A DNA stretch of 64,000 nucleotides from Pegea sp. RAD2-039. Taxonomy: Eukaryota > Chordata > Thaliacea > Salpida > Salpidae. The stretch lies in the NCBI GenBank assembly GCA_034620365.1, contig JAQGEQ010000254.1, forward strand, positions 434,001 through 498,000. The letters run 5' to 3'. The translations under genes and the position numbers were made by a program. Positions 11,804 through 34,713 of this stretch are shown here, piece after piece. Within the stretch, counting starts at the first letter, position 1. Each line of letters begins with the position of its first letter. The notes under the pieces were generated by a model. It was not told the DNA's origin, did no database searches, and saw nothing but the letters and a program-made list of their open reading frames with translations.

Positions 11804-11935
11804 TGATTTACTCGATTTGTTGTGATGTCAATTTGAATATTTGAAAAAGTTCAAAGAATTGTATTTAAAAAAGATCTAAGCAAATAATCAATAAACAAAT
11901 AATTTCAAATAGTTACTTGCTAAAATGTTTAAACA
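11804..11935 (+). repeat. Boundary repeat copy 1 (left edge of array)
   Basis: Begins TGATTTACTCGATTTGTTGTG, about 10 bp after the PRDM9 AATAAA signal, and ends in AGTTACTTGCTAAA. It matches 18392-18540 and 23272-23420 directly and 27811-27956 inversely. This copy is the most diverged and lacks an internal TTATTAATT segment seen in the others. Confidence 0.75.
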
Positions 11936-12054
11936 AACTAATATGAGTTGAAATATAATTTATTTGAAGATTTGTGATGATTAAATATGAATATAGTAAT
12001 AGTTAGTTGATAGAAATACTTAGTTTTGTAAACAATAGATAAATATTAGGCAAT

Positions 12055-13500
12055 TTCACAAAATCTCGGAACTATTACTTATTAACTCTTTTTCGAGTAA
12101 GTTTAATAGAGTTAAGACTCAAATAGAAAAGCTGATATTGAATCACAACGCTGTTTTTTAATCAAGCAAATGATGAATATTTAATTTTGTGTTCATCTCC
12201 AATACGATTACAGAAAACAATATTTTCACTTCTTTATCTTATATAATTTCAACGACATTACTTATAAGGGTTAATACATCGAAAAAGACTTCAATTACTT
12301 TGTCATCCTTATCTTTTATTAGTTTTCTAATTTGATATTTTCTAATTACTGTAAGTTCTCTAGGTTTTGAATAGAAAATTTGTTGATTTGTTAGATATAA
12401 TCTCAAAAAATTAATTAGGTTTGAGATAGAACGTGTGACAAAGAAAAGACAATGTATTTGACAACGATACACCAAGAAACAAAATGAAAAACAAGAAGAA
12501 GGTGATCCTTTTTGAGAAGACTTTAATAAATAAATTAGTCAATCTAATTTAGTACAAGTTACTCTCTAACAGATTTTCAACAGGGTTGTGATAAATGCAG
12601 TTGCAAGATGACAATGGAACCCTTATCTGTCTCGTGTTTTCTTCTTTTTCTATAGCAATTGATTTAGTTTTTGCTCACAAAAGACGCACTGTTGATAAGA
12701 CTTTTCCGTGCTGCACAGATCTAAAACAAGTTGAGACAACTGAGTGTGTTGTGTTTACCTATTTCAACAAGAGTTTTACTTGATCTTTAAGCTCTTTGTT
12801 GGAAAATCTCTGTTTCTACAGCCAATAAGAATTGGATTGCAATACAGTTTATTTTCTTTGTTTTATTTTCTAATTCAGATAATAAATTATAGTTTTAAAA
12901 TCACTTAAATTTGATAAGTTAATTTTATTTTAATAAGTTTCAAGTTATAGTTTATATTCTATTTGAATAAGTACTTATACGTTGAGATACAGTTATTTCT
13001 AGGAAGTGATTTGTATATTATATACTGTAGTTGGTGACAGTAAAAATCTTTACGAAAACTATGATGGTTCCAAATAAAACCAACAAGACCTTATGATCAA
13101 ATATAAAGATAAAAAATCCTGAAAAAATCTAACACAATTTACTTCACAAGGTTAATAATAATTGAATACAACTAATTGAATAATGATTATAAGTTGAAAT
13201 AAGATTATTTTTATTAATTGATTTGTACTTGTGATAAATTATTCTATGTTGTGATGAAATTATTTTTAGTACATGATTTGTCTATTACTTTTGGTAAATT
13301 ATTCTATCTGGATATAAGTTCGATTCGAACTATTTCTATTGGTTACACTAGAAATTTTTCATGAAAGTAAAAACTATGGTGGATCTAAAAAAGTAGCAAG
13401 ACCTTACGTTTCAACGTACAGAAAACTTCTGACAAACCAACTTCATCAAAACAAGTTTGCAATGGCAATTGCTAACCCTACAATAAAGTAATAGTATACG
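12055..13500. repeat. Array module 1 (outer left arm)
   Basis: Matches 26495-27680 in the same orientation and about 32870-34560 inversely. It contains a 78-codon minus frame (12475-12239), still open in the right arm but carrying a one-base deletion in the 26.7-kb copy. I do not recognise that peptide and it may not be expressed. The rest is AT-rich with no known TE domain. Confidence 0.7.
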
Positions 13501-13581
13501 AAACTTAAATCTGAAAGTGGCAACGATGTTGCCAAGATCAACGAAAAAAATTTTAGTTTGTCTAAATTAATGGATTATTAA

Positions 13582-14108
13582 ATGAATGAACTGGATGATT
13601 CTACAAAGATACCTGTCATATGTACCTCGGTTGCCCGACAAAAATGTTAGCAAGGTGCAACTTCTTATCATCAAGGCCACCAACACTCACTAATCTTATA
13701 TTGGGCCGTGATGACAGAGAAAACATTGCCATCATCTTTAATATCTGTGAGACTAATGAAGATGAGGACAGTAAATATTTTAACCAAATGTGCTCTCAAA
13801 ATTTTGTGGACGTTCCAAAGGTATCGATGAACAGACTTGGAACAAAAAGCTCAGATCACCAAAGACCGTTGAAAGTATCCTTTCAGGAAAGTTGGAACAA
13901 ACGCAAGTTTCTTGCCGAGCTGTATAAGCTAAGGCTTGACAAAAAATTCGAGCGCATTAGAGTAACACATGACATGTGTGATTATCACTTAGAAAATAAA
14001 CGTCTTCTAAAAGATGCGTATAATCAACATCAGAAGGAACAACCGACTGATTTCAAATACAAAGTTGGAGGTTCACCACGGACCTTGAGAATTGTCAATT
14101 TTTTTTAA
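13582..14108 (+). pseudogene. LINE ORF1-like fragment, left arm
   Basis: The 163-codon frame from 13620 ends in a C-terminal RNA-binding-type segment seen in many LINE ORF1 or gag-like proteins: RPLKVSFQESWNKRKFLAEL, then a basic helical stretch and FKYKVGG. The probable original start (MNELDDSTKIPV, 13582) lies in another frame, so the copy is frameshifted. The right-arm copy is at 32800-32279. The start shares a flank with the endonuclease fragments elsewhere in the unit (AATGGATGAACTGGAT-like, then CCTGTCATATG), so both pieces probably come from one LINE family. The assignment rests on domain resemblance only. Confidence 0.6.
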
Positions 14109-14753
14109 ACAAGCAAATCAAGCAATTCAAAAGCTCCTATACAAACAAAATAAAACAGACCCTTCCATCAAATCTCTGTACAATGACATTTGTATAGCTT
14201 AAAAGAAAACTATTTCCAGTTTCTATTTAGGAAGAGAAAGTGCAAACTCACCTGACAAGAAAACGTTTTATGGCTTCATAAATCACAAGCTTACAGTGAT
14301 ATCTAAAATACCTCCAATAATTTCTCGAAAACTATACTCTGGGTAAGGCATCATTAAACGTGATCGCATAAGTTTAAAAGAGGTGATGTCTCCTTACTTT
14401 ATAAAAGTGACCTAAAGTTCAACAGGTTGATATTAATTGAGATTTTTTCTATTCTGCAAGAACAGTTTCAAACTTATTTGTAGTGATCTTTTTTAACTTA
14501 AAATTCACATTAAGAATTTGTTTTATTTATCTCCATTTTGTAACATCTAGAAATCGATTCAGTTTATCTGATATGTACAAGGTTATTAGTACATTACGAA
14601 TTGTATTTATTTGATTAGTTTCTAGCTGCGACAAATACAGTTATTTACAGAAAACAACACAGATGAAACAAGATAAAATGGGTGACAAAATTTATTATCA
14701 ATAATCGGTTTTATAATTAACTATAACAACAGATACAAGTTATTATCAGACTA

Positions 14754-17126
14754 CTAAGAACTAAGAGATAAGTCTTCTGGTAGATCTTGAAGGTTACCGA
14801 AAATGTTTTCAAAACTTAATTCTTCTTTATTGATTTTAGAAATGGTTTGTATAACCAAACAGCATTTATATAAAAATTCCAATTGCTGTTTATAAATGGA
14901 GTTGTTAGAACAAATTTTGTTTACTTCTGTTAATGTTACTTTAAGGCAAGTTATCAGTTTAAAAAAACATTCTTTATTAGACATAGTAATTTTGCCCTTC
15001 AAAATATTTGGCAGTTTCTTTAAATAACAAAAAAATTTGTTTATGCTTCCAATAACCAAGTTAACAGAATCTGGAGTTTTTTTCATCAAATATCTTATCA
15101 GTATAAGCCATCCTTCAAACATAATTAAACTGACATTATTCCATTTGATACCATCCACATTATCCATTGCGTTAACAAAAAATCCTTCCATTATTTCTAC
15201 GACTAACTTTGGGTCTTCTGTATATTCGACAAACTTTGGAGCAGTCACAGCAAACAAGCAAAGTTCACGTTTTAATGAAAAAATTAAATTTAAAAAAATC
15301 TTAAGAAATTTTCTTTTAAGCATTTCATCTTTTTGTTTCCACGGCTGTTCTTGAAACTCACTGTTGAAATTGCACTTCCTTTCTATAAGGGTTTTGGATA
15401 ATTGAGCAATGGAATATTTCGGTAACGTTAAAAAACCACTCTGTGCCCGGGGAATAGTTGAATTAAAAAAGCATTCAGCTATTTCATCCTCAATTATATT
15501 AATGAAACAAACTAAGTCTAGATAGCAGGTTGAGAATTGGGCCTTTTCGATTTCAAAATTTGTGTATTCAAACGGAAATTCAAATTGGCATAAAAGTCTG
15601 AAGTTAGTTGTTGATGTTGAACACAGAAGAACATTATCTAAACAATGACAAAATAGCAAAAACGGCAAGTACTGTAGGAACAGATTTTTATATTTTTTGA
15701 CTTCATCAGCAATTAAATAAATATTTTTATCTATGATACAACAATTTTCACCACCTAAGTTGTTCATAGAATCTTCATTTAGCAAACAATCCTGTGACTG
15801 ATTTAAAGCATTCTGATCTGATACATTTTGTAAACATAAAAACAAATAACGCTTTACTGTAAAAGCTAAGCAAATGAGAAAAAAAAATTTTCTATTACAG
15901 TCAAAGTTCGATACTGAGACGTTTTGAAGTTTCAAACATTTAGAAATATTTGAGCTTAATACTGAGACCAAGAAAAATTTGCTGATGACAGATTTCAAAT
16001 TTTTATTGATAAGAATAAACTGTTTGTGGTTTTCTTCAAGACTTTCTTCCAAATCGCATACATAACTACTGACATCTAATTTTTTGTACAAAGTTTTGTT
16101 TACATACAAACCAGTTACAACATTCTTATTACATTCTGTTGTTTCAAAGTTTTTACACTTCAAATAACAAATTAGCTCTATCAGCCCATCAAAACAAACC
16201 AAAGCTGACGAAAGTGTGGTAATTAAAGATCTGTCGGTTTCAATTGCATGATTGCTGAATTCAGTTTTGCACAATGTGTGTATTCGTTTTGAGCAAACGG
16301 TTTGTCTAAAAATATATAACTGATCTGCATTTGAAGATTGAACGAATAATAGCAAGTCACAGAACATCACAAGTTCTTCAATTAAAGTGAATGTTTTCAA
16401 AAAAACTGGCAAGTAACAAAGTTGGTGTCCAAAACATTGTTTTTTTAAGCTGATAACTTTGCAAGCATAACCATCTAAGAATGACAGATACATTTGTAAT
16501 TTGACCAAACTAACTTGATTGTGTGAAAAGTTGAAGGAAGATGAAGAAAAAGAAAACTTTTTTATCAATTCAGAAATTATCTTCTTATTTTTTTTAAGAT
16601 TTGCTTTTGATGTTGTTTTAAACACATTTATAACTTGTGACAAAAAACAGGAAAAAGCAATTACTTTAATTTTTTGTTGAACTTTATTCAACTCCAAACC
16701 CTCAGCAATGATTAAACAATTTTTCAATAGTTCCAAACAAATGAAATGAATTCTTACTGATTTGCTATTCACTAATGCAACTCCTAAATAAAGAAAGATT
16801 ATGGCCAAAATTATTTTGTAAGAAAAGTTATTAACTTTGAAATCTTTCAATTTATAGATATTAACAAAATATCCATTCTGAGAAATCCAGTAAACACATC
16901 CCGGTAATGCAATATTATCCTTGACCAGTGAACTAGAAATACAATCAAATACATCACCATCTAGATGATCAAGTTTGTATTGATGTTGAAATTCGATCAG
17001 TTCAATGCCTGTTTCATTTGTAAAAATTGAATCAAATATATCTCCTTGCAACATGTAAAAGTTATTTTCTTTTATCTTGCAAAGTTTTACAAATCTGGAA
17101 AATTGATTTACTTTTGAACTAGACAT
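14754..17126 (-). CDS. 790-aa orphan protein, copy A (left arm)
   Basis: An uninterrupted 790-codon frame starting MSSSKVNQFSRFVKLCKI and ending LPEDLSLSS. I do not recognise the family. Composition is rich in Leu, Phe, Lys, Ser and Cys and looks largely alpha-helical. Hydrophobic stretches (about residues 104-122 and 415-435) could be buried helices; there is no signal peptide. No transposase, integrase, polymerase or nuclease motif is visible. Copies B and C differ from A at a handful of positions in residues 1-464 and almost none in 653-790, but at roughly 35 positions within 465-640. All three are intact despite this divergence, which argues for selection to keep the protein. A TATA-like box is conserved about 360 bp upstream (17491-17484) and an acceptor-like TTTTACAG or TTTAACAG just before the ATG suggests a spliced 5' UTR. 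A mobile-element or selfish gene and a recently amplified host gene are both possible. Confidence 0.8.
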   Translation of the reverse strand: MSSSKVNQFSRFVKLCKIKENNFYMLQGDIFDSIFTNETGIELIEFQHQYKLDHLDGDVFDCISSSLVKDNIALPGCVYWISQNGYFVNIYKLKDFKVNNFSYKIILAIIFLYLGVALVNSKSVRIHFICLELLKNCLIIAEGLELNKVQQKIKVIAFSCFLSQVINVFKTTSKANLKKNKKIISELIKKFSFSSSSFNFSHNQVSLVKLQMYLSFLDGYACKVISLKKQCFGHQLCYLPVFLKTFTLIEELVMFCDLLLFVQSSNADQLYIFRQTVCSKRIHTLCKTEFSNHAIETDRSLITTLSSALVCFDGLIELICYLKCKNFETTECNKNVVTGLYVNKTLYKKLDVSSYVCDLEESLEENHKQFILINKNLKSVISKFFLVSVLSSNISKCLKLQNVSVSNFDCNRKFFFLICLAFTVKRYLFLCLQNVSDQNALNQSQDCLLNEDSMNNLGGENCCIIDKNIYLIADEVKKYKNLFLQYLPFLLFCHCLDNVLLCSTSTTNFRLLCQFEFPFEYTNFEIEKAQFSTCYLDLVCFINIIEDEIAECFFNSTIPRAQSGFLTLPKYSIAQLSKTLIERKCNFNSEFQEQPWKQKDEMLKRKFLKIFLNLIFSLKRELCLFAVTAPKFVEYTEDPKLVVEIMEGFFVNAMDNVDGIKWNNVSLIMFEGWLILIRYLMKKTPDSVNLVIGSINKFFCYLKKLPNILKGKITMSNKECFFKLITCLKVTLTEVNKICSNNSIYKQQLEFLYKCCLVIQTISKINKEELSFENIFGNLQDLPEDLSLSS

Positions 17127-17483
17127 TCTTAGTGATTGGTAGTCTGTAAAACAATTAATAACAGCTTTTAATTATGTAGAAATACAATAAAAAAATAACC
17201 TTGCTTTTAGTTTAAACTTTATTTGTTGCAATTATTAATTTATCAGTTTAGCTACATAATCAAAAATGACATCAAAAGCAAAAGTAAATAACAACATAAA
17301 TACATTAGTTTAAATCTACTTTTGATACAAGAAGCTAAAACAATTAAGGTAAGAGTCAATCTACAAGAATAGAGTGTAATTTATATGATACAAAAAATAG
17401 CATCTCTTCATCGTTTACAACAAACTTTTAATATATTAAATAAAACTGATTAAATAACACAGCTTGAAAACTTTTCATTCAGC

Positions 17484-17491
17484 CTTTTATA
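17484..17491 (-). promoter_or_regulatory. TATA-like box upstream of 790-aa gene copy A
   Basis: TATAAAAG on the minus strand, about 360 bp before the ATG. The same motif sits at the same relative place in copies B (22372-22365) and C (28858-28865) within a well conserved upstream region. Function is inferred from motif and conservation only. Confidence 0.35.
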
Positions 17492-17874
17492 AACAAGTAC
17501 TTAAAGTTATGATATAAGTTAAACCCAAATCTGTTTAGTCAAAAGTATTTAATACAAGAAAAACAGTTGTTAAATAGAAGTTATTAAAGAGGCTTCTAAC
17601 TGTACAAGACAACATAAAAGTAGTTGACGAATTTGTAAGAATTTTTGAAGTATGCTTAATAAAGGCAGTTGATTAGTTTTATGTATAGTAACCCTAAAGT
17701 TTCAAAAGTTGTAAGAATTGATTATTTTATGAGCAAAAAATCAAACATTTCAATAACAAAAATTGTTAACAACTTTTGTAATGATTTTTTGAGACTATTT
17801 TGAAAGCCTATAACGCTTAGAAATAAATTTTTAATAAAAGATACTTTTTAAAAACCAGTACCAAAATTTATAGT

Positions 17875-18265
17875 TTGCCTAAATTAATGGATGAACTGGA
17901 TACTTCTAGAACCTGTCATATGGGCCTCGGTGGTAGATGATTCTGATTCCAAAGAAAATGCAAAAGTGCGTGAGTTGTTATGCCTTCGTTGTCATCTAGA
18001 CCTTTGACTACTGACAACAAACCCATATTCCCTGCTTCGTTATCAGGCTTTCTTGACAGAAAAAGTGTAACCTCTTTTCATTACGGAGCTTTGGCCGGCA
18101 AATGACTTGGCCTTGGAGGCTTATATGTTGGAAGACGGCAATATCGACTTTTAGTTGATTGTTGTTTATGATGACATTTTTTCTGAAGTCGTGAATGCTA
18201 CTGACGTTTGTATCCATACCAGTGGTAATAGTACGGAAGTTCCAACTTCCTAGTTTAAGAGTGTA
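17875..18265 (-). pseudogene. RTE-type LINE endonuclease fragment, unit A
   Basis: Across two frames it reads like the N-terminus of an RTE endonuclease (the type often annotated craniofacial development protein 2-like): a degraded LGxWNxRT start, IHDFRKIVIINNNQLKVDIAVFQ-like text and SLQGQ in one frame, then a KPDNEAGNMGLLS-like segment in another. Stops and frame changes make it non-functional as an endonuclease. It lies upstream of the 790-aa gene in all three units, in the same orientation as that gene. Confidence 0.6.
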
Positions 18266-18391
18266 AATCTCAGATTTAGTTTCTAACTTATTTCTAGGAG
18301 AAATTTACAGTCTGCTTATGACAGCAGAGTAATCCCCAGACTTCTAATAAGGAAGGCAAACTGTCCCAAGTTAACCCAATTCGAACAACAC

Positions 18392-18540
18392 TGATTTACT
18401 CAATTTGTTTTGATGTCAATTTGAATATTTCAAAAAAAAGTTATTAATTCAAAGAATTGTATTTTAAAAAGATCTAAGCAAATAAAAATTAATCAATAAA
18501 CAAATGATTTCAAATAGCTACTTGCTAAAGTTGTTTATCT
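18392..18540 (+). repeat. Boundary repeat copy 2
   Basis: Starts TGATTTACTCAATTTGTTTTG and ends with TAGCTACTTGCTAAAGTTG. It separates unit A from unit B and is nearly identical to 23272-23420. Confidence 0.8.
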
Positions 18541-19065
18541 AGGTGACAAAGATTATATCAGGTATTCTGGAAGAATAGTTTACTGAACTTAGCTGTGCAT
18601 TAAACAAATTATAATCAACAAGGAAAAAGTCAGAAAAAGGATACTTAATGTTACAGATGCAAGTTTAAGGAGAATACTTGGTTGTCAATTATTCCAAAGC
18701 AAATGATTCGATAGAAAGGTAGGATAGGCATATGAACCAATTCGGTATTCAAAAAGTACTGAATTATTTATTAAAGACATCTACTTCAACCTTTCGATTT
18801 ATATCTGTAATCGTTAATCTCTTATTTCACAAGTTTCCAGGTTTGTTTCTGAGTTATTCCTATATTTACAAAACATTTTCATTTATCTCTTAGACGGCAT
18901 ACAACTTCACCGTTTCAAGAAGTTGTCAGTAAAATCCTAACTTAGTTAATATTTTACTTTTAAAATTCTATTCACAATAAAAGATCACTTTTGTTTGTTC
19001 TTTTGCATTTCACTGTGTTCTGCTTTATTTTTAAAATCATCAACCATAGCACATCAATAATTTCT
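18541..19065. repeat. Array module X, copy 1
   Basis: Matches 23421-23945 in the same orientation and includes the block around the 69-codon frame at 23612-23821. At 19065 it joins directly to sequence equivalent to 14218, so unit B lacks module 1 and the ORF1 fragment. No recognisable protein. Confidence 0.7.
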
Positions 19066-19636
19066 ATTTAGGAAGAGAAAGTGCAAACTCACCTGACAGG
19101 AAAACGTTTTTTGGCTTCATAAATCACAAGCTTAAAGTGATATCTAAAATACCTCCAATAATTTCTCGAAAACTATACTCTAGGTATGATATCATTAAAC
19201 GTGATCGCATAAACTTAAAAGAGGTGATGCCTCCTTACTTTATAAAAGTGACCTAAAGTTCAACAGGTTGATATTAATTGAGATTTTTTCTATTCTGCAA
19301 GAACAGTTTCAAACTTATTTGTATTGATCTTTTTTAACTTAAAATTCACATTAAGAATTTGTTTTATTTATTTCTGTCTTTTAACATCTAGAAATCGATT
19401 CAGTTTATCTGATATGTACAAGGTTATTAGTACATTACGAATTGTATTTATTTGATTAGTTTCTAGCTGCGACAAATACAGTTATTTACAGAAAACAACA
19501 AAGATAAAACAATTTATGATACGTGTATACAATAACAAGAAAGTTGTATACCAAGATAAAATGGGTGACAAAATTTATTATCAATAATTGGTTTTATAAT
19601 TAACTATAACAACAGATACAAGTTATTATCAGACTA
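19066..19636 (-). repeat. 3' module of unit B
   Basis: Matches 14218-14753 (left arm) and, inversely, 31596-32150. It contains the 3' flank of the 790-aa gene, including an AATAAA signal in gene orientation shortly after the stop codon. Confidence 0.65.
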
Positions 19637-22009
19637 CTAAGAACTAAGAGATAAGTCTTCTGGTAGATCTTGAAGGTTACCGAAAATGTTTTCAAAACTT
19701 AATTCTTCTTTATTGATTTTAGAAATGGTTTGTATAACCAAACAGCATTTATATAAAAATTCCAATTGCTGTTTATAAATGGAGTTGTTAGAACAAATTT
19801 TGTTTACTTCTGTTAATGTTACTTTAAGGCAAGTTATCAATTTAAAAAAACATTCTTTATTAGACATAGTAATTTTGCCCTTCAAAATATTTGGCAGTTT
19901 CTTTAAATAACAAAAAAATTTGTTTATGCTTCCAATAACCAAGTTAACAGAATCTGGAGTTTTTTTCATCAAATATCTTATCAGTATAAGCCATCCTTCA
20001 AACATAATTAAACTGACATTATTCCATTTGATACCATCCACATTATCCATTGCGTTAACAAAAAATCCTTCCATTATTTCTACGACTGACTTTGGGTCTT
20101 CTGTATATTCGACAAACTTTGGAGCATTCACAGCAAACAAGCAAAGTTCACGTTTTAATAAAAAAATTGGTTTTAAAAAATTCTTAAGTATTTTTCTTTT
20201 AAGCATTTCATCTTTTTTTTTACTCGGCTGTTCTTGAAACCCACTGTTGAAATTGCGCTTCCTTTCTATAAGGGTTTTGGATAATTTAGCAATGAAGCAT
20301 TTCGGTAACGTTAAAAAACCACTCTGTGACAGGGTAATAGTTGAATTAAAAAAACATTCATCTCTTCTATCCTGAAATTTATTAATGAAACAAACTAGGT
20401 CTAGATAGCAGGTTGAGAATTGGGACTTTTCGATTTCAAAATTTGTGTATTCAAACGGAAATTCAAGTTGGCATAAAAGTCTGAAGTTAGTTGTTGATGT
20501 TGAACACAGAAGAACTTTATATAAACAATAACAAAATAGCAAAAACGGGAAGTCCTGTATGAACAGATTTTTATATTTTTTGACTTCATCAGCATTTAAA
20601 TAAACATTTTTATCGATGATACAACAATTTTCACCACCTAAGTTGTTCATAGAATCTTCATTTAGCAAACAATCCTGTGACTGATTTAAAGCATTCTGAT
20701 CTGATACATTTTGTAAACATAAAAACAAATAACGCTTTACTGTAAAAGCTAAGCAAATCAGAAAAAAAAATTTTCTATTACAGTCAAAGTTCGATACTGA
20801 GACGTTTTGAAGTTTCAAACATTTAGAAATATTTGAGCTTAATACTGAGACCAAGAAAAATTTGCTGATGACAAATTTCAAATTTTTATTGATAAGAATA
20901 AACTGTTTGTGGTTTTCTTCAAGACTTTCTTCCAAATCGCATACATAACTACTGACATCTAATTTTTTGTACAAAGTTTTGTTTACATACAAACCAGTTA
21001 CAACATTCTTATTACATTCTGTTGTTTCAAAGTTTTTACACTTCAAATAACAAATTAGCTCTATCAGCCCATCAAAACAAACCAAAGCTGACGAAAGTGT
21101 GGTAATTAAAGATCTGTCGGTTTCAATTGCATGATTGCTGAATTCAGTTTTGCACAATGTGTGTATTCGTTTTGAGCAAACGGTTTGTCTAAAAATATAT
21201 AACTGATCTGCATTTGAAGATTGAACGAATAATAGCAAGTCACAGAACATCACAAGTTCTTCAATTAAAGTGAATGTTTTCAAAAAAACTGGCAAGTAAC
21301 AAAGTTGGTGTCCAAAACATTGTTTTTTTAAGCTGATAACTTTGCAAGCATAACCATCTAAGAATGACAGATACGTTTGTAATTTGACCAAACTAACTTG
21401 ATTGTGTGAAAAGTTGAAGGAAGATGAAGAAAAAGAAAACTTTTTTATCAATTCAGAAATTATCTTTTTATTTTTTTTAAGATTTGCTTTTGATGTTGTT
21501 TTAAACACATTTATAACTTGTGACAAAAAACAGGAAAAAGCAATTACTTTAATTTTTTGTTGAACTATAGTCAACTCCAAACCCTCAGCAATGATTAAAC
21601 AATTTTTCAATAGTTCCAAACAAATGAAATGTATTCTTACTGATTTGCTATTCACTAATGCAACTCCTAAATAAAGAAAGATTATGGCCAAAATTATTTT
21701 GTAAGAAAAGTTATTAACTTTGAAATCTTTCAATTTATAGATATTAACAAAATATCCATTCTGAGAAATCCAGTAAATACATCCTGGTAATGCAATATTA
21801 TCCTTGACCAGTGAACTAGAAATACAATCAAATACATCACCATCTAGATGATCAAGTTTGTATTGATGTTGAAATTCGATCAGTTCAATGCCTGTTTCAT
21901 TTGTAAAAATGTAATCAAATATATCTCCTTGCAACATGTAAAAGTTGTTTTCTTTTATCTTGCAAAGTTTTACAAATCTGGAAAATTGATTTACGTTTGA
22001 ACTAGACAT
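19637..22009 (-). CDS. 790-aa orphan protein, copy B
   Basis: Second intact 790-codon copy, same length as A and C with no net insertion or deletion. It begins MSSSNVNQFSRFVKLCKI. Within residues 465-640 it agrees with copy C against A at many places (KFQDRRDECFF where A has IIEDEIAECFF; STITLSQSG versus STIPRAQSG) but also has its own replacements (KCFIAKL, KNFLKPIFLL). The upstream region with TATA-like box at 22372-22365 is conserved. Being tandem with copy A in the same orientation, it shows that tandem duplication occurred as well as inversion. Function unknown. Confidence 0.8.
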   Translation of the reverse strand: MSSSNVNQFSRFVKLCKIKENNFYMLQGDIFDYIFTNETGIELIEFQHQYKLDHLDGDVFDCISSSLVKDNIALPGCIYWISQNGYFVNIYKLKDFKVNNFSYKIILAIIFLYLGVALVNSKSVRIHFICLELLKNCLIIAEGLELTIVQQKIKVIAFSCFLSQVINVFKTTSKANLKKNKKIISELIKKFSFSSSSFNFSHNQVSLVKLQTYLSFLDGYACKVISLKKQCFGHQLCYLPVFLKTFTLIEELVMFCDLLLFVQSSNADQLYIFRQTVCSKRIHTLCKTEFSNHAIETDRSLITTLSSALVCFDGLIELICYLKCKNFETTECNKNVVTGLYVNKTLYKKLDVSSYVCDLEESLEENHKQFILINKNLKFVISKFFLVSVLSSNISKCLKLQNVSVSNFDCNRKFFFLICLAFTVKRYLFLCLQNVSDQNALNQSQDCLLNEDSMNNLGGENCCIIDKNVYLNADEVKKYKNLFIQDFPFLLFCYCLYKVLLCSTSTTNFRLLCQLEFPFEYTNFEIEKSQFSTCYLDLVCFINKFQDRRDECFFNSTITLSQSGFLTLPKCFIAKLSKTLIERKRNFNSGFQEQPSKKKDEMLKRKILKNFLKPIFLLKRELCLFAVNAPKFVEYTEDPKSVVEIMEGFFVNAMDNVDGIKWNNVSLIMFEGWLILIRYLMKKTPDSVNLVIGSINKFFCYLKKLPNILKGKITMSNKECFFKLITCLKVTLTEVNKICSNNSIYKQQLEFLYKCCLVIQTISKINKEELSFENIFGNLQDLPEDLSLSS

Positions 22010-22744: not shown

Positions 22745-23145
22745 AATGTATAGTTTGCCTAAATCAATGGATGAACTGGATACTTCTAGAACCTGTCATA
22801 TGGGCCTCGGTGGTAGATGATTCTGATTCCAAAGAAAATGCAAAAGTGCGTGAGTTGTTATGCCTTCGTTGTCATCTAGACCTTCGACTACTGACAACAA
22901 ACCCATATTCCCTGCTTCGTTATCAGGCTTTCTTGACAGAAAAAGTGTAACCTCTTTTCCATACGGAGCTTTGGCCGGCAAATGACTTGGCCTTGGAGGC
23001 TTATATGTTGGAAGACGGCAATATCGACTTTTAGTTGATTGTTGTTTATGATGACAATTTTTCTGAAGTCGTGAATGCTACTGACGTTTGTATCCATACC
23101 AGTGGTAATAGTACGGAAGTTCCAAGTTCCTAGTTTAAGAGTGTA
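22745..23145 (-). pseudogene. RTE-type LINE endonuclease fragment, unit B
   Basis: Same content as the fragment upstream of copy A. Here a 61-codon frame (22981-22796) reads KEVTLFLSRKPDNEAGNMGL, and an overlapping 69-codon frame (23097-22888) carries the DFRKIVIINNNQLKVDIAVFQ-type segment. The two frames together mimic one continuous RTE endonuclease N-terminus, so at least one frameshift has occurred. Confidence 0.6.
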
Positions 23146-23420: not shown

Positions 23421-24690
23421 AGGTGACAAAGATTATATCAGGTATTCTGGAAGAATAGTTTACTGAACTTAGCTGTGCATTAAACAAATTATAATCAACA
23501 ATGAAAAAGTCAGAAAAAGGATACTTAATGTTACAGATGCAAGTTTAAGGAGAATACTTGGTTGTCAATTATTCCAAAGCAAATGATTCGATAGAAAGGT
23601 AGGATAGGCATATGCACCATTTCGGTATTCAAAAAGTACTGAATTATTTATTTAAGATATCTACTTCAACCTTTCTATTTATATCTGTAATCGTTAATCT
23701 CTTATTTCACAAGTTTCCAGGTTTGTTTCTGAGTTATTCCTATATTTACAAAACATTTTTCATTTATCTCTTAGACGGCATACAACTTCACCGTTTCAAG
23801 AAGTTGTCAGTAAAATCCTAACTTAGTTAATATTTTACTTTTAAAATTCTATTCACAATAAAAGATCACTTTTGTTTGTTCTTTTGCATTTCACTGTGTT
23901 CTGCTTTATTTTTAAAATCATCAACCATAGCACATCAATTCATAATCAAAGCAGACATTATTATTTTTAAATTTTTCAAAGTGTCTTTAATAGAGAAAAG
24001 AATTCCAAATGATGTTCGCTTTCAGAAAAGTTGCATAAAATCATTAAAACGTGGAAAAAAACATTTTTTTGTAATTTTTATGTTTATACCAAAGAAATCA
24101 CCAACTAATAATACTTTTGATATTTCAAGTTTACTGTTTGTAAAATTATTATTCTATTTTCCCTAAATATAATATATGATGTTACATAGGATCCTCAAAC
24201 AAAATTCAAATTTTAGTTTACGTCTATGTCATTGTTTCTTTAAAAGTTTATATCTAATAGTACTCTCTATAGACCAAAATAGGACATTTACAGCAACAGA
24301 CAAAAGTGTTAGGATTGAATGTTTGGACAAACTCACCAAGTTGCTTACTTGTAAAATAAAAATAATAAAAAACAATATTTTTTTGTTTTCAGCTACATTA
24401 AAAGATTTTCAAATTCTGTAGCAAATTTTTAGCAGTTCAGTGAAATTCCTTAAATCCGTGTAATAAAAAATTGTGTTATCTTTGAAAACCTTAACCATTT
24501 TTATTGCTTTGAGGTTATAAATCATTATCATTCAACATCTTAAATTAAAAATATAGAACTTCATACTTTTTCAACAAAAAAAACATAAATAATAATGAAG
24601 CAAATGTTAGTATAATCAAGTTAATAAGCTTTTAAAACACTATCCGCGAAAGAAGTATCCTCTGTGATTCGGTTTGTTTGTTATATTACA
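23421..24690. repeat. Array module X copy 2 plus unique extension
   Basis: Positions 23421-23945 repeat 18541-19065. Beyond that the sequence is single-copy in the window and carries two modest plus frames (about 23882-24166 and 24176-24421), Lys/Phe/Ser-rich and 246-285 bp long. They resemble the 790-aa protein in composition and could be the tail of a related decayed gene, but no alignment could be made by eye. At about 24691 the sequence rejoins the 3' flank of the 790-aa gene in right-arm orientation. Confidence 0.5.
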
Positions 24691-24882: not shown

Positions 24883-25985
24883 CTTGATTAGAGTCGTTTT
24901 AATAAATTCTAATTTTCTTTGTGTCCTTTTAGTCATCAGTTTACTTTCATATTTTATCGTTCGCCTCCGTAGCGTAGCATGTATCACACCCGCCTACACG
25001 CAGAAAGTTTCGGGTTCATGTCCCATGCCAACACATCTTTAAATTGCAACAAGAAAAAGTCTTTGAAGAGTTTGGGTAGAAAAGCCTCGTTAGTTCAGTT
25101 GTTAACACGATTTGTCGGAGAAATAAAACTCTGAATTAAAAGCTGGAGCTAGATCCTAGTAGGTAGATGTTATACTGTAGCTGTTGCGATGCCAGCATGG
25201 CGTAGCTGCATCAGTTTATGTGTTCCACTGCAAACTTTAATTTAGTGGAGAGTGGCACAACTGGATCTTTATCATTTTTACCTCGTCATATAAAATGGCC
25301 GATTTCAACTAAAACTTACTATTACTTTTTCGTCTAATTTTGTGATGTTTTTAGATTTGTGAATAATAATTCCATTTGTATGTACTGACCTTTAAAAAAG
25401 CTTTTCTTATGCAACAGTGTTGCAAAGATAAAAGTTTCTGGTAAACAAAATCATAAAAGTTCTGAAAGATATTTTGTAGCTCCTTTCTTATAATTTAAAT
25501 CAATTAAAGTTTGTTTAACAAACGAAACAAAAATTACAAGAATTGTATGAGATAATTTGAAATTGATATTACTGACAACAGTGAACAAAGCCATTCATAA
25601 AATTATATTTTTTCTGCTTTCAGAACAATACTCTTACAGATGAGGTCTGTGAAGACTTTGGTTGAAAAGTTCAGCTTTTTTAAGATCATTGAAATAAACA
25701 TTTTCATCAATAATGGTTGGTTTGGATGAAGTTTGAGTTTATATTTGATTTTTAAAATCTGTAAGGTTTGCGTGATGAGCCGCTGTGGTTGGTTTTACTT
25801 TCCTTATATCAAAGCCACTAATTAACTTCAATTAAAATTTATTTACACTTTGCTACGTTTGAGCCTTCTATTTTAGAATAGTTTAAACTCTAAAGAGATG
25901 CTTTTCAATTATAAAAGATTTTGTAAGGTGGAAGTTTAATACGATTAATTAACTTTGAACACAATATGTATACTTATATACTATT
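24883..25985. mobile_element. 1.1-kb insertion carrying a SINE
   Basis: Flanking sequence (ATAAATACAATTC before, ATATACTAATAACC after) is continuous in the right arm at about 31790-31810, so this block was inserted after the unit was duplicated, or lost from the other copies. It contains the tRNA-headed SINE at 24960-25300; the remainder to 25985 is AT-rich without a recognised element. I could not identify a target-site duplication. Confidence 0.6.
24960..25300 (+). mobile_element. tRNA-derived SINE, copy 1
   Basis: The head (about 24964-25034) has tRNA promoter boxes: box A-like TAGCGTAGCATGTATCAC and box B-like GGGTTCATGTCCC, with an anticodon-loop-like CGCCTACACGCAG between. It is not a functional tRNA, since the arms do not pair well. 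The body contains AACTCTGAATTAAAAGCTGG and GCCAGCATGGCGTAGCTGCA, shared with the copies at 45545-45790 and 61467-61935 on the minus strand. Confidence 0.7.
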
Positions 25986-26494
25986 ACTATTATTATTATA
26001 TACTAATAACCTTGTTTATATCAGATAAACTGAATCGATTTCTAGATGTTAAAAGACGGAAATAAATAAAACAAATTCTTAATTTGAATTTTAAGTTAAA
26101 AAAGATCAATAAAAATAAGATTGAAACTGTTCTTGCAGAATATAAAAAATCTCAATTAATATCAACCTGTTGAACTTTAGGTCACTTTTATAAAGTAAGG
26201 AGACATCACCTCTTTTAAGTTCATGCGATCACGTTTAATGATGCCTTACCCAGAGTATAGTTTTCGAGAAATTATTGGAGGTATTTTAGATATCACTTTA
26301 AGCTTGTGATTTATGAAGCCATAAAACGTTTTCTTGTCAGGTAAGTTTGCACTTTCTCTTCCTAAATAGAAATTAGAAATAGTTTTCTTGTAAGCTATAC
26401 AAATTTCATTGTACAAAGATTTGATGGAAGGGTCTGTTTTAGTTTGTTTGTATAGGAGTTTATAAATTGCTTGATTCGCTTGTTTAAATCACAA
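25986..26494 (+). repeat. 3' module fragment in right-arm orientation
   Basis: Matches 31800-32280 directly and 14600-14150 inversely. At about 26490 it stops and module 1 begins in the opposite (left-arm) orientation, an inversion junction inside the array. Confidence 0.65.
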
Positions 26495-27680
26495 TATCTC
26501 GGAGCTATTACTTATTAACTCTTTTTCGAGTAAGTTTAATAGAGTTAAGACTCAAATAGAAAAGCTCAATCACAGCGCTGTTTTTTAATCAAGCAAATGA
26601 TGAATATTTAATTTTGTGTTCATCTCCAATACGATTACAGAAAACAATATTTTCACTTCTTTATCTTATATAATTTCAACGACATTGCTTATAAGGGTTA
26701 ATACATCGAAGAGACTTCAATTACTTCGTCATCCTTATCTTTTATTAGTTTTATAATTTGATATTTTCTAATTACTGTAAGTTTTCTAGGTTTTGAATAG
26801 AAAAATTTTGTTGATTTGTTAGATATAATCTCAAAAAATTAATTAGGTTTGAGATAGAACGTGTGACAAAGAAAAGACAATGTATTTGACAACGATACAC
26901 CAAGAAACAAAATGAGAAACAAGAAGAAGGTGATCCTTTTTTAGAAGACTTTAATAAATAAATTAGTCAATCTAATTTAGTACAAGTAACTCTATAACAG
27001 ATTTTCAACAGGGTTGTGATAAATGAAATTGCAAGATGACATTGGAACCCTTATCTGTCTCGTGTTTTCTTCTTTTTCTATAGCAATTGATTTGGTTTTT
27101 GCTCACAAAATATGCACTATTGATAAGACTTTTCCGTGCTGCACGGATCTAATACAAGTTGATTTTTCAGCAAGAGTCTTACTTGATCTTTAAGCTCTTT
27201 GTTGGAAAACCTCTGTCTCTACAGCCAATTAGAATTGGATTGCAATACAGTTTATTTTCTTTGTTTTATTTTCTAATTCAGATAATAAATTATAGTTTTA
27301 AAATCACTTAAATATGATAAGTTCATTTTACTTTAATAAGTTTCAAGTTATAGTTTATATTCTATTTGAATAAGTGCTTATAAGTTGTGATAAAGTTAAT
27401 TTTAGAAACTGATTTGTATATTATATACTGTGGTTGGTGACAGTAAAAATCTTTGCGAAAACTATGGTGGTTCCAAATAAAACCAACAAGACCTTATGAT
27501 CAAATATAAAGAAAAATCCTGATAAAAATCCGCCACAATTTACTTCACAAGCTTAATAACATTTGAATATATATTATTGAATAATGATTATAAGTTGAAA
27601 TAAAATTATTTTTATTAATTGATTTGTACTTGTGATAAATTATTATATCCGATTAAGAAATCGATTCGATCCATTTGAGT
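26495..27680 (+). repeat. Array module 1, internal copy
   Basis: Same orientation as 12055-13300. Small deletions and substitutions are scattered through it, including a frameshift in the equivalent of the 78-codon frame. 27540-27760 then matches 33240-33480 inversely. Confidence 0.65.
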
Positions 27681-27810
27681 TGGTGGCACTAAAATAATTT
27701 TCCAGCAGAATAGTTTGATGAATAAAAATGCTGTTTTTAATAAACATCAAAATCTAGCAAGTAACTAATTCTTTCTTCCAGAATACCTGATATAATCTTT
27801 GTCACCTAGA

Positions 27811-27956
27811 TAAACAACTTTAGCAAGTAGCTATTTGAAATCATTTGTTTATTGAGTATTTTTTATTTGCTTAGATCTTTTTAAAATACAATTCTTTGAA
27901 TTAATAACTTTTTTTTGAAATATTCAAATTGACATCAAAACAAGTTGAGTAAATCA
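27811..27956 (-). repeat. Boundary repeat copy 4
   Basis: Inverse of copies 2 and 3. It marks the inner end of the right arm. Confidence 0.8.
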
Positions 27957-28084
27957 GTGTTGTTTGAATTGGATTAACTTGGGACAGTTTGCCTTCCTTA
28001 TTAGAAGTCTGGAAATTACTCTGCTGTCATAAGCAGACTGTAAATTTCTCCTAGAAATAAGTTAGAAACTAAATCTGAGATTTA

Positions 28085-28480
28085 CACTCTTAAACTAGGA
28101 AGTTGGAACTTCCGTACTATTACCACTGGTATGGATACAAACGTCAGTAGCATTCACGACTTCAGAAAAATTGTCATCATTAACAACAATCAACTAAAAG
28201 TCGATATTACCGTCTTCCAACATATAAGCCTCCAAGGCCAAGTCATTTGCCGGCCAAAGCTCCGTAATGAAAAAAGGCTACACCTTTTCTGTCAAGAAAG
28301 TCTGATAACGAAGCAGGGAATATGGGTTTGTTGTCAGTAGTCGAAGGTCTAGATGACAACGAAGGCATAAAAACTCACGCACTTTTGCATTTTCTTTGGA
28401 ATCAGAATCATCTACCACCAAGGCCCATATGACAGGTTCTAGAAGTATCCAGTTCATCCATTGATTTAGGCAAACTATAC
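28085..28480 (+). pseudogene. RTE-type LINE endonuclease fragment, unit C
   Basis: Right-arm counterpart of the endonuclease fragments upstream of copies A and B, with the 69-codon frame at 28131-28340 (MDTNVSSIHDFRKIVIINNN start). It is preceded by a degraded LGxWNxRT-like start, and its closing frame is disrupted. Confidence 0.6.
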
Positions 28481-28857
28481 ATTTTGGTACTGGTTTTTAA
28501 AAAGTATCTTTTATTAAAAATTTATTTCTAAGTGTTATAGGCTTTCAAAATAGTCTCAAAAAATCATTACAAAAGTTGTTAACAATTTTTGTTATTGAAA
28601 TGTTTGATTTTTTGCTCATAAAATAATCAATTCTTACAACTTTTGAAACTTTAGGGTTACTATACATAAAACTAATCAACTGCCTTTATTAAGCATACTT
28701 CAAAAATTCTTACAAATTCGTCAACTACTTTTATGTTGTCTTGTACAGTTAGAAGCCTCCTTAATAACTTTTATTTAACAACTTTTTTTTCTTGTATTAA
28801 ATACTTTTGACTAAACAGATTTGGGTTTAACTTATATCATAACTTTAAGTATTTGTT

Positions 28858-28865
28858 TATAAAAG
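28858..28865 (+). promoter_or_regulatory. TATA-like box upstream of 790-aa gene copy C
   Basis: TATAAAAG in a conserved upstream region, about 360 bp before the ATG. A donor-like AAG|GTTATT near 29148 and acceptor TGTTTTACAG near 29204 could define a 5'-UTR intron of about 55-60 bp, matching intron sizes seen in other genes of the window. Confidence 0.35.
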
Positions 28866-29222
28866 GCTGAATGAAAAGTTTTCAAGCTGTGTTATGTAAT
28901 CAGTTTTATTTATTATTTTAAAAGTTTGTTGTAAAAGATGAAGAGATGCTATTTTTTGTATCATATAAATTACACTCTATTCTTGTAGATTGACTCTTAC
29001 CTTAATTGTTTTAGCTTCTTGTATCAAAAGTAGATTTAAATTAATGTATTTATGTTGTTATTTACTTTTGCTTTTGATGTCATTTTTGATTATGTAGCTA
29101 AACTGATAAATTAATAATTGCAACAAATAAAGTTTAAACTAAAAGCAAGGTTATTTTTTTATTGTGTTTCCACATAATTAAAAACTGTTATTAACTGTTT
29201 TACAGACTATTAGTCACTAAGA

Positions 29223-31595
29223 ATGTCTAGTTCAAACGATATTCAATTTTCCAGATTTGTAAAACTTTGCAAGATAAAAGAAAACAACTTTTACATGTTG
29301 CAAGGAGATATATTTGATTACATTTTTACAAATGAAACAGGCATTGAACTGATCGAATTTCAACATCAATACAAACTTGATCATCTAGATGGTGATGTAT
29401 TTGATTGTATTTCTAGTTCACTGGTCAAGGATAATATTGCATTACCAGGATGTGTTTACTGGATTTCTCAGAATGGATATTTTGTTAATATCTATAAATT
29501 GAAAGATTTCAAAGTTAATAACTTTTCTTACAAAATAATTTTGGCCATAATCTTTCTTTATTTAGGAGTTGCATTAGTGAATAGCAAATCAGTAAGAATA
29601 CATTTCATTTGTTTGGAACTATTGAAAAATTGTTTAATCATTGCTGAGGGTTTGGAGTTGACTATAGTTCAACAAAAAATTAAAGTAATTGCTTTTTCCT
29701 GTTTTTTGTCACAAGTTATAAATGTGTTTAAAACAACATCAAAAGCAAATCTTAAAAAAAATAAAAAGATAATTTCTGAATTGATAAAAAAGTTTTCTTT
29801 ATCTTCATCTTCCTTCAACTTTTCACACAATCAATTTAGTTTGGTCAAGTTACAAACGTATCTGTCATTCTTAGATGGTTATGCTTGCAAAGTTATCAGC
29901 TTAAAAAAACAATGTTTTGGACACCAACTTTGTTACTTGCCAGTTTTTTTGAAAACATTCACATTAATTGAAGAACTCGTGATGTTCTGTGACTTGCTAT
30001 TATTCGTTCAATCTTCAAATGCAGATCAGTTATATATTTTTAGACAAACCGTTTGCTCAAAACGAATACACACATTGTGCAAAACTGAATTCAGCAATCA
30101 TGCAATTAAAACCGACAGATCTTTAATTACCACACTTTCGTCAGCTTTGGTTTGTTTTGATGGGCTGATAGAGCTAATTTGTTATTTGAAGTGTAAAAAC
30201 TTTGAAACAACAGAATGTAATAAGAATGTTGTAACTGGTTTATATGTAAACAAAACTTTGTACAAAAAATTAGATGTCAGTAGTTATGTGTGCGATTTGG
30301 AAGAAAGTCTTGAAGAAAACCACAAACAGTTTATTCTTATCAATGAAAATTTGAAATTTGTCATCAGCAAATTTTTCTTAGTCTCAGTATTAAGCTCAAA
30401 TATTTCTAAATGTTTGAAACTTCAAAACGTCTCAGGATCGAACTTTGACTGTAATAGAAAATTTTTTTTTCTGATTTGCTTAGCTTTTACAGTAAAGCGT
30501 TATTTGTTTTTATGTTTAGAAAAAGTATCAGATCAGAATGCTTTAAATCAGTCACAGGATTGTTTGCTAAATGAAGATTCTATGAACAACTTAGGTGGTG
30601 AAAATTGTTGTATCATCGATAAAAATGTTTATTTAATTGCTGATGAAGTCAAAAAATATAAAGAGCTGTTCATACAGGACTTGCCGTTTTTGCTATTTTG
30701 TTATTGTTTATATAAAGTTCTTCTGTGTTCAACATCAACAACTAACTTCAGACTTTTATGCCAATTTGAATTTCCGTTTGAATACACAAATTTCGAAATC
30801 GAAAAGACCCAATTCTCAACCTGCTATCTAGACCTAGTTTATTTCATTAATAAATTTCAGGATAGAAGAGATGAATGTTTTTTTAATTCAACTATTACCC
30901 TGTCACAGAGTGGTTTTTTAACGTTACCGAAATATTCCATTGCTCAATTATCCAAAACCCTTATAGAAAGGAAGCGCAATTTCAACAGTGGGTTTCAAGA
31001 ACAGCCGAGTAAAAAAAAAGATGAAATGCTTAAAAGGAAAATACTTAAGATTTTTTTAAATTCAATTTTTTCATTAAAACGTGAACTTTGCTTGTTTGCT
31101 GTGAATGCTCCAAAGTTTGTCGAATATACAGAAGACCCAAATTCAGTCGTAGAAATAATGGAAGAATTTTTTGTTATCACAATGGATAATGTGGATGGTA
31201 TTAAATGGAATAATGTCAGTTTAATTATGTTTGAAGGATGGCTTATACTGATAAGATATTTGATGAAAAAAACTCCAGATTCTGTTAACTTGGTTATTGG
31301 AAGCATAAACAAATTTTTTTGTTATTTAAAGAAACTGCCAAATATTTTGAAGGGCAAAATTACTATGTCTAATAAAGAATGTTTTTTTAAACTGATAACT
31401 TGCCTTAAAGTAACATTAACAGAAGTAAACAAAATTTGTTCTAACAACTCCATTTATAAACAGCAGTTGGAATTTTTATATAAATGCTGTTTGGTTATAC
31501 AAACCATTTCTAAAATCAATAAAGAAGAATTAAGTTTTGAAAACATTTTCGGTAACCTTCAAGATCTACCAGAAGACTTATATCTTAGTTCTTAG
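29223..31595 (+). CDS. 790-aa orphan protein, copy C (right arm)
   Basis: Third intact 790-codon copy, in the opposite orientation to A and B, starting MSSSNDIQFSRFVKLCKI and ending LPEDLYLSS. In residues 465-640 it is a mosaic: C-like and B-like text shared (KFQDRRDECFF, STITLSQSG), but A-like at KYSIAQLSKTL, with private changes (NSVVEIMEEFFVITMDN). Residues 1-464 carry few differences. AATAAA at 31653-31658, 57 bp after the stop, is a likely polyadenylation signal. Three copies keeping one reading frame in both orientations is hard to explain by chance; the biochemical role is unknown. Confidence 0.82.
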   Translation: MSSSNDIQFSRFVKLCKIKENNFYMLQGDIFDYIFTNETGIELIEFQHQYKLDHLDGDVFDCISSSLVKDNIALPGCVYWISQNGYFVNIYKLKDFKVNNFSYKIILAIIFLYLGVALVNSKSVRIHFICLELLKNCLIIAEGLELTIVQQKIKVIAFSCFLSQVINVFKTTSKANLKKNKKIISELIKKFSLSSSSFNFSHNQFSLVKLQTYLSFLDGYACKVISLKKQCFGHQLCYLPVFLKTFTLIEELVMFCDLLLFVQSSNADQLYIFRQTVCSKRIHTLCKTEFSNHAIKTDRSLITTLSSALVCFDGLIELICYLKCKNFETTECNKNVVTGLYVNKTLYKKLDVSSYVCDLEESLEENHKQFILINENLKFVISKFFLVSVLSSNISKCLKLQNVSGSNFDCNRKFFFLICLAFTVKRYLFLCLEKVSDQNALNQSQDCLLNEDSMNNLGGENCCIIDKNVYLIADEVKKYKELFIQDLPFLLFCYCLYKVLLCSTSTTNFRLLCQFEFPFEYTNFEIEKTQFSTCYLDLVYFINKFQDRRDECFFNSTITLSQSGFLTLPKYSIAQLSKTLIERKRNFNSGFQEQPSKKKDEMLKRKILKIFLNSIFSLKRELCLFAVNAPKFVEYTEDPNSVVEIMEEFFVITMDNVDGIKWNNVSLIMFEGWLILIRYLMKKTPDSVNLVIGSINKFFCYLKKLPNILKGKITMSNKECFFKLITCLKVTLTEVNKICSNNSIYKQQLEFLYKCCLVIQTISKINKEELSFENIFGNLQDLPEDLYLSS

Positions 31596-32278
31596 TAGTC
31601 TGAAAATAACTTGTATCTGTTGTTATAGTTAATTATAAAACCGATTATTGATAATAAATTTTGTCACCCATTTTATCTTGGTATACAACTTTCTTGTTAT
31701 TGTATACACGTATCATAAATTGTTTTATCTTTTTTTGTTTTCTGTAAATAACTGTATTTGTCGCAGCTAGGAACTAATCAAATAAATACAATTCGTAATA
31801 TACTAATAACCTTGTACATATCAGATAAACTGAATCGATTTCTAGATGTTAAAAGACGGAGATAAATAAAACAAATTCTTAATGTGAATTTTAAGTTAAA
31901 AAAGATCAATACAAATAAGTTTGAAACTGTTCTTGTACAAAAGAAAAAATCTCAATTAATATCAACCTGTTGAACTTTAGGTCACTTTTATAAGCAGACA
32001 TCACCTCTTTTAAGTCTTAGCAATCAAGTTTAATGATACCATACCTGGAGTAAAGTTTTCGAGAAATTATTGGAGGTATTTTAGATATCACTGTAAGTTT
32101 GTGATTTATGAAGCCAAAAAGAGTTTTCCTGTCAGGTGAGTTTGCACTTTCTCTTCCTAAATAGAAATTAGAAATAGTTTTCTTGTAAGCTATACAAAGG
32201 TCATTGTACAGAGATTTGATGGAAGGGTCTGTTTTAGTTTGTTTGTATAGAAGCTTTTAAATTGCTTGATTTGTTTGT
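31596..32278 (+). repeat. 3' module of unit C
   Basis: Inverse match of 14110-14753 in the left arm. Contains the gene C polyadenylation signal; otherwise AT-rich with no ORF. Confidence 0.65.
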
Positions 32279-32800
32279 TTAAAAAAAATTGAAATTTCTC
32301 AAGGATCGTGGTGGACCTCCAACTTTGTATTTGAAATCAGTCGGTTGTTCCTTCTGATGTTGATTATACGCATCTTTTAGAAGACGTTTATTTTCTAAGT
32401 GATAATCACACATGTCATGTGTTACTCTAATGCGCTCGAATTTTTTGTCAAGCCTTAGCTTATACAGCTCGGCAAGAAACTTGCGTTTGTTCCAACTTTT
32501 CTGAAAGGACACTTTCAACGGTCTTTGATGATCTGAGCTTTTCGCTCCAAGTCTAATCATTGATACATTTGGAATGTCCACAAAATTTTGAGAGCACATT
32601 TGGTTAAAATATTTACTGTCCTCATCTTTATTAGTCTCACAGATATTAAAGATGATGGCAATGTTTTCTCTGTCATCACGGCCCAATATAAGATTAGTGA
32701 GTGTTGGTGACCTTGATGATAAAAATTGCACCTTGCTAACATTTTTGTCGGGCAACCGAGGTACATATGACAGGTATCTTTGTAGAATCATCCAGTTCAT
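32279..32800 (-). pseudogene. LINE ORF1-like fragment, right arm
   Basis: A 173-codon frame that is the right-arm partner of 13582-14108, with the same KVSFQKSWNKRKFLAELYKL segment and VTHDMCDYHLENKRLLKDA. Here the 5' part (PRLPDKNVSKVQFLSSRSPT) is in frame further upstream than in the left arm, so the left-arm frameshift is not shared. No reverse transcriptase follows. Confidence 0.6.
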
Positions 32801-34560
32801 TCATTTAATAATCCATTAATTTAGACAAACTAAAAAAATGTTCGTTGATCTTGGCAACATCGTTGCCACTTTCAGATTTAAGTTTCCTATACTATTATTT
32901 TATTGCAGGGTTAGCAATTGCCATTGCAAACTTGTTTTGATGAAGTCGGTTTGTGAGAAGTTTTCTGTACGTTGAAACGTAAGGTCTTGCTACTTTTTTA
33001 GATCCACCATAGTTTTTACTTTCATGAAAAATTTCTAGTGTAACCAATAGAAATAGTTCGAATCGAACTTATATCCAGATAGAATAATTTACCAAAAGTA
33101 ATAGACAAATCATGTACTAAAAATAATTTCATCACAACATATAATAAATTATAATAATTAACTTATTCAAACATAATCGATAGAATCTTATCAAATAGAA
33201 GAATTATATCTTTAGAAGATTTAAACTTTCTTTCCTTCAATTGATTGAATGAGATTTAAAGATTTTAATATTTATTAAAAACAGGATTTTTATTCATCAA
33301 ACTATTCTGCTGGAAAATTATTTTAGTGTCATCAACTCAAATGGATCGAATCGATTTCTTAATCAGATAGAATAATTTATCACAAGTACAAATCAACTAA
33401 TAAAAATAATTTTATTTCAACTTATAATAATTAATCAATTATATATTATCAAATGTTATTAAGCTTGTGAAGTAAATTGTGTCGGATTTTTATCAGGATT
33501 TTTCTTTATATTTGATCATAAGGTCTTGTTGGTTTTATTTAGAACCACCATAGTTTTCCTAAAGATTTTTACTGTCACCAACCACAGTATATAGTATTCA
33601 AGTCAGTTTCTAAAAATAACTTTATCACAACTTATAAGCACTTATTCAAATAGAATATAAACTATAACTTGAAACTTATTAAAGTAAAATGAACTTATCA
33701 AATTTAAATGATTTTAAAACTATAATTTATTATCTGAACTAGAAAATAAAACAAAGAAACTGTATTGCAATCCAATTCTAATTGGCTGTAGAGACAGAGG
33801 TTTTCCAGCAAAGAGCTTAAAGATCAAGTAAGACTCTTGCTGAAAAATCAACTTGTATTAGATCTGTGCAGCACGGAAAAGTCTTATCAATAGTGCATAT
33901 TTTGTGAGCAAAAACCAAATCAATTGCTATAGAAAAAGAAGAAAACACGAGACAGATAAGGGTTCCATTGTCATCTTTCAACTGCATTTATCACAACCCT
34001 GTTGAAAATCTGTTAGAGAGTAACTTGTACTAAATTAGATTGACTAATTTATTTATTAAAGTCTTCTAAAGAAAGACAAAAAGGATGATGCCATCCACCT
34101 TCTTCTTGTTTCACATTTTGTTTCTTGGTGTATCGTTGTCAAATACATTATCTTTTTTTTGTCACACGTTCTATCTCAAACCTAATTAATTTTTTGAGAT
34201 TATATCTAACAAATCAACAAATTTTTCTATTCAAAACCTAGAAAACTTACAGTAATTAGAAAATATCAAATTATAAAACTAATAAAAGATAAGGATGACG
34301 AAGTAATTGAAGTCTTTTTCGATGTATTAACCCTTATAAGCAATGTCGTTGAAATTATATAAGATAAAGAAGTGAAAATATTGTTTTCTGTAATCGTATT
34401 GGAGATGAACACAAAATTAAATATTCATCATTTGCTTGATTAAAAAACAGCGTTGTGATTCAATATCAGCTTTTCTATTTGAGTCTTAACTCTATTAAAC
34501 TTACTCGAAAAAGAGTTAATAAGTAATAGTTCCGAGATTTTGTGAAATTGCCTAATATTT
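32801..34560 (-). repeat. Array module 1, right arm
   Basis: Inverse match of about 12055-13570. It includes an open 78-codon-equivalent frame around 34140-34362 on the plus strand. The 33130-33250 interval lacks a visible counterpart in the left arm, a small insertion or deletion between arms. Confidence 0.65.
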
Positions 34561-34713
34561 ATCTATTGTTTACAAAACTAAGTATTTCTATCAACTAACT
34601 ATTACTATATTCATATTTAATCATCACAAATCTTCAAATAAATTATATTTCAACTCATATTAGTTTGTTTGAACATTTTAGCAAGTAACTATTTGAAATT
34701 ATTTGTTTATTGA
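34561..34713 (-). repeat. Outer end of right arm with truncated boundary repeat
   Basis: Inverse of 11888-12055, ending ATTTGTTTATTGA at 34713. The left arm continues outward for another 84 bp of boundary repeat (11804-11887), absent here, so the two outer ends are not equivalent. Confidence 0.75.

Follow-up and report, generated by a model that had tools for sequence, protein, structure and literature searches.

An inverted array of an orphan 790-codon gene in the salp Pegea sp., probably a local amplification of a large nuclear gene family under coding constraint

An array in the genome of Pegea sp. RAD2-039, in which an orphan gene is repeated in inverted and tandem order, raises the question of how such copies were multiplied. 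The initial annotation of this DNA had offered two readings: a composite mobile or selfish element of a new kind, or a rapidly evolving and recently amplified host gene. The stretch analysed (the window, 64,000 nucleotides) corresponded to bases 434001-498000 of contig C67, in a genome of 105.7 Mb and 387 contigs. The features used below were the following:

10390-11728, plus strand: neighbour outside the family, with a PR-domain-like frame (PF21549) and a C2H2 zinc-finger frame (PF00096), from Pfam
11804-11931: boundary repeat of 130-150 bp, with others at 18392-18537, 23272-23409 and 27811-27956 (82%)
11888-18621: left inverted arm, from self-comparison
14754-17126, minus strand: gene copy 1, left arm, 790-codon ATG-to-stop frame
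19061-23939: tandem unit between the arms, a direct repeat of 14220-19058, from self-comparison
19637-22009, minus strand: gene copy 2, in the tandem unit of the spacer, 790-codon ATG-to-stop frame
25985-27755: spacer pieces repeating arm parts (14104-14605 inverted, 12056-13260 direct), from self-comparison
about 27282-27550: interspersed repeat piece within the array (31 of 55 genome-search rows, on other contigs)
27715-34713: right inverted arm, from self-comparison
28610-28840: upstream block, about 400-600 bp before the gene, about 70-80% identical to the copies of contigs C75 and C95, from alignment
29198-29222, plus strand: splice-acceptor-like sequence TTTTACAG, its end 17 nt before the ATG of copy 3, from upstream alignment
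29223-31595, plus strand: gene copy 3, right arm, 790-codon ATG-to-stop frame

Comparison of the window with itself bore out the architecture initially described: inverse arms of about 6.7 kb, a tandem unit in the spacer, three intact 790-codon frames of equal length and boundary repeats of 130-150 bp at four sites. Inverted pairs were found at 12930-18621 / 33471-27715 (93.4% identity), 11888-13260 / 34713-33354 (92.0%) and 19058-23501 / 32170-27715 (96.8%), and a direct pair at 14220-19058 / 19061-23939 (96.6%); the outermost 494 bp of both arms were 99% alike. The array had the form of a palindrome, with inverted repeats and the gene present in both arms, and the spacer carried arm pieces in a different order, indicating that the locus grew through several duplications and inversions. 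Identity of one window protein to the other two was 96% and 94%. The interspersed pieces inside the array were presumably debris of RTE LINEs; Pfam gave nothing above its cut-off for five frames from these LINE-like pieces, including the frame 28044-28337, whose match to DUF3232 (E 0.064) lay below it. The absence of transposase, integrase and polymerase frames from the array, noted at the outset, was found again among the window-array frames, and extended to the sampled stretches of contigs C95 and C173, LINE-like debris being all that was seen.

Mapping of further copies in the same genome, proposed with the initial annotation, returned dozens of intact and broken copies on many contigs. The 790-aa protein matched at least 57 rows of its own genome (E limit 0.001); 16 of the 57 rows listed were full-length and stop-free, on contigs C67, C75, C91, C95, C254 and C266, and the remaining rows were stop-bearing, cut, or members of a second, short type. 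This short type (about 430-470 aa) was revealed by a search with the first 459 aa, which gave at least 95 rows (E limit 0.01). A short-type member used as query gave at least 102 rows (E limit 0.001), and among the 102 listed, 40 rows on 14 contigs started at residue 1 and were open for 426 aa or more; in 34 of these the match reached residue 420 or further. Some rows of this recount included stops close to where the match ended. These copy counts are lower bounds, and alleles on separate contigs could inflate the numbers; the members of C87 and C272, which differ at 13 coding bases, are possible alleles. Four broken copies (C261, C275 and C286) carried stops and frame shifts; many related copies, intact and broken, lie in one genome, as in birth-and-death families. 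Eighteen intact members aligned co-linearly, and identity to window copy 3 was 66% for a C75 copy, 47-48% for eight copies of the C91/C95/C254/C266 type and 27-32% for six short members. Some of the copies on other contigs also stood in tandem or inverted order: two long-type copies of C95 lay 5.7 kb apart and were 96% alike over 1.8 kb (a comparison covering the part of both units present in the stretch), and two short-type copies of C173 lay 6.7 kb apart and were 78% alike over 2 kb.

These frames evolve fast, yet under purifying selection. Under a codon model, omega was 0.53 for 12 long genes, 0.64 for four genes of C67 and C75, 0.67 for eight C266-type genes and 0.66 for six short genes, and omega = 1 was rejected in all four sets (p of 1e-19, 3e-4, 5e-4 and 1e-5 respectively, with kappa scanned from 1 to 6). 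Coding indels were absent from all three pairs of window copies, and about 2 kb of flank held 3, 7 and 8 events. Pairwise dN/dS among the window copies reached 0.87, and rose to 1.2-2.8 between copy 1 and the other two in alignment columns 505-707, a segment in which constraint may be weak or selection diversifying, or which may have been imported as a tract. Eight neighbouring gene stretches, taken for comparison, spanned the values seen at third codon positions and at fourfold sites, and G+C at first codon positions was slightly lower (0.32-0.34 vs. 0.35-0.53 in the same stretches).

The three window copies are block-wise mosaics of each other. Across 196 sites at which one copy differed from the other two (one three-state site was omitted), the odd copy changed in 87 runs against 128 ± 6.5 expected, and none of 20000 permutations gave a value as low. 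Switching of the odd copy in blocks is the pattern that conversion or crossing-over would leave, and this mosaic would point indirectly to conversion between copies, as in ampliconic families. A FastTree of 26 long-type copies, both intact and broken but excluding the broken C75 copy L036, and read without branch supports, showed several nearest relatives that sat on different contigs, for example L015 (C91) with L016 (C266), and L025 (C95) with L029 (C254), an arrangement which is also compatible with mobility or with separately assembled haplotypes.

A short motif just upstream of the gene was also kept. Following T-rich sequence, an acceptor-like CAG stood at -17 in all 18 distinct upstream sequences of the long type, copies 1 and 2 on the minus strand having it at the same distance before the ATG as copy 3. 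In the short type, TTTAGCAG was present at about -31 in seven of seven sequences and TAG at about -16 in six of the seven. This conserved CAG/TAG can be read as a candidate splice acceptor, acting in cis or in trans; no conserved 5' splice donor was seen in the upstream alignment. Between the C75 and C95 types, likeness was confined to the gene and one upstream stretch. With regard to the status of processed retrocopy, the feature examined was the acceptor-like site, and it was retained before the ATG. Elsewhere in the window, a three-RRM gene at 47712-49193, which we take to be PUF60, formed an uninterrupted 493-codon frame and had an acceptor-like TTTTTTAG 8 nt before its ATG. This gene, the PR-domain-like and C2H2 frames of the neighbour and rRNA of eukaryotic type are all in keeping with an animal genome.

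Profile and structure searches of the protein, the other check proposed initially, gave no Pfam match over the cut-off for the window copies, with no zinc finger or other domain, and an unusable structural model. Over 18 members, the best of the scattered Pfam matches, ranked by E-value, were to DUF6331 (one member, E 0.0033) and to CCDC53 (two members, E 0.0087). The best PDB E-values were 0.045 for copy 3 and 0.19 for a short member, and three PDB profile searches gave 0.82, no match and 0.65. NCBIfam gave no match for three proteins and PHROGs none for one, though PHROGs is limited to bacterial and archaeal viruses and its silence says little. No relative was present among 25 pattern matches in IMG/VR viral contigs or among 58 in prokaryote genomes. 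A convincing relative thus appears to be absent from Pfam, PDB, NCBIfam, PHROGs, the viral contigs and the prokaryote genomes, and the protein may be called an orphan with respect to these sets. AlphaFold2 models of the three window copies had a mean pLDDT of 33 and no residue at or above 70; their mostly helical output is weak evidence. By eye, the protein showed no signal peptide and a few hydrophobic stretches. Visual inspection had suggested an internal duplication between the N- and C-terminal parts, but hhalign gave it no support (probability 0.1%).

On its left side, up to about 12054, the array consisted of the 3' flank of the adjoining PR/C2H2 gene, itself repeated in the genome: the stretch 10950-12054, containing its last frame and 3' flank, gave 46 genome rows on 18 contigs, several of them on C67, and six rows, including that of the window, were at 95-100%. 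Contigs C67, C70, C87, C253 and C272 carried both this repeat and family members (an overlap of lists, without statistics). A 198-bp tandem satellite was observed on the short-type contigs C87, C173, C272, C358 and C159, and it recurred on C4 and at the beginning of C11; the loci L061 and L062 were the ends of C87 and C272 and carried this satellite. Contig C67 ended in a fold-back, an inverted copy of 57571-58771, which is either a genuine palindrome or a join made in assembly. The rRNA gene copies were rearranged: in locus L066 (1-630), a long simple repeat lay where the 5' part of 18S was expected; in L072, an 18S piece was seen by eye twice amid other sequence.

How the copies spread was examined by comparing 27 loci with one reference. 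Eleven (the reference included) matched up to their own start, nine broke at a single shared position, five each at a position of their own, and two C75 loci shared the gene, one of them also an upstream piece; matching resumed past most of the breaks, which are therefore inner gains or losses. Unit ends of the long-type loci were not found within the 1.5-kb fetched flanks, which are too short to show them. The gene could in principle be the cargo, or the sole gene, of a mobile element of a new kind spreading through the genome, as the number of copies over many contigs would allow, and as would the finding that several copies have their closest relatives on other contigs; a large unit is possible, since in most long-type loci homology continued as far as the fetched flank did. 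We consider this unlikely in view of the tandem and inverted order of the copies, the retained acceptor-like site and the stretches of C95 and C173, where no frame longer than 94 aa was found outside the gene. A family of selfish drive genes (a killer or a poison-antidote system, for example) that owes its amplification to its own transmission advantage is less probable still: fast evolution, amplification, copy exchange and broken copies are all indirect indications, as are the amplified zinc-finger neighbour and the satellite near short-type copies, while omega was below 1, as in ordinary genes, and the sampled stretches of C95 and C173 showed no partner frame. The more specific proposal of a new selfish animal gene family of unknown fold, spreading by germline or meiotic drive beside counter-evolving amplified PR/zinc-finger genes, would be a long shot.

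Two further explanations seem very improbable to us. Genes remaining from an integrated large DNA virus and later multiplied would account for a coding part without intron and for the lack of a homologue in the libraries searched, but IMG/VR held no relative, an acceptor-like site was present, and inspection of the frames, with Pfam scans of some of them, revealed no viral gene in the window or in the three stretches sampled. Equally improbable is a repeat structure produced in part by assembly, with haplotypes joined or kept apart. The final 1.2 kb of C67 were a 99.5% inverted copy of window 57571-58771 and the near identity of the outermost arm ends would fit as well; most of the arms, however, differed by 3-8%, each with its own indels, and the array is therefore hardly a fold-back copy made during assembly.

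Amplification of a host gene, the second of the two readings offered initially, is supported at the level of sequence by the large family within the same genome, the constraint on the frames, the mosaic copies and the acceptor-like site; the composite mobile or selfish element found less support. The array is probably a local amplification of a nuclear animal gene family whose coding part is one exon and which evolves by birth and death in ampliconic arrays. In such a family, a leader would be spliced (in cis, or as a spliced leader) shortly before the ATG, copies would arise and be homogenised through unequal exchange, inversion and gene conversion, and the product would be a mostly helical intracellular protein.

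Comparable arrangements exist in other genomes. C2H2 zinc-finger genes form tandem amplified clusters; the Pegea family shares with them the amplified arrays, and a repeated PR/C2H2 gene borders the present one, but in the 790-aa protein neither a zinc finger nor any other Pfam domain exceeded the cut-off. Ampliconic palindromes of the primate Y type likewise carry intact gene copies in each arm of an inverted repeat and show signs of exchange; most of the Pegea arms, however, are just 92-97% alike, and copies of human Y families are more than 99% alike according to PMC6772104. Palindromes of the parthenogenetic Adineta vaga and Folsomia candida, as portrayed in PMC7953838, also place inverted gene copies on one chromosome with possible gene conversion, but they hold many-gene blocks where the Pegea array holds one orphan gene with repeats; the same source warns that assembly errors can imitate palindromes. 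Sex linkage left aside, the array would behave like ampliconic birth-and-death families, its copies kept by constraint and homogenised by exchange.

By analogy with other ampliconic families, the product of the amplified host gene could tentatively be regarded as a germline or genetic-conflict protein, the likeliest role though a doubtful one, suggested by evolutionary rate and arrangement. The family, whose long open copies number in the dozens and show no recognised domain, is a good case for the amplification of an orphan gene under constraint, and if it were germline-specific or driving, it would add a protein to the short list of conflict genes.
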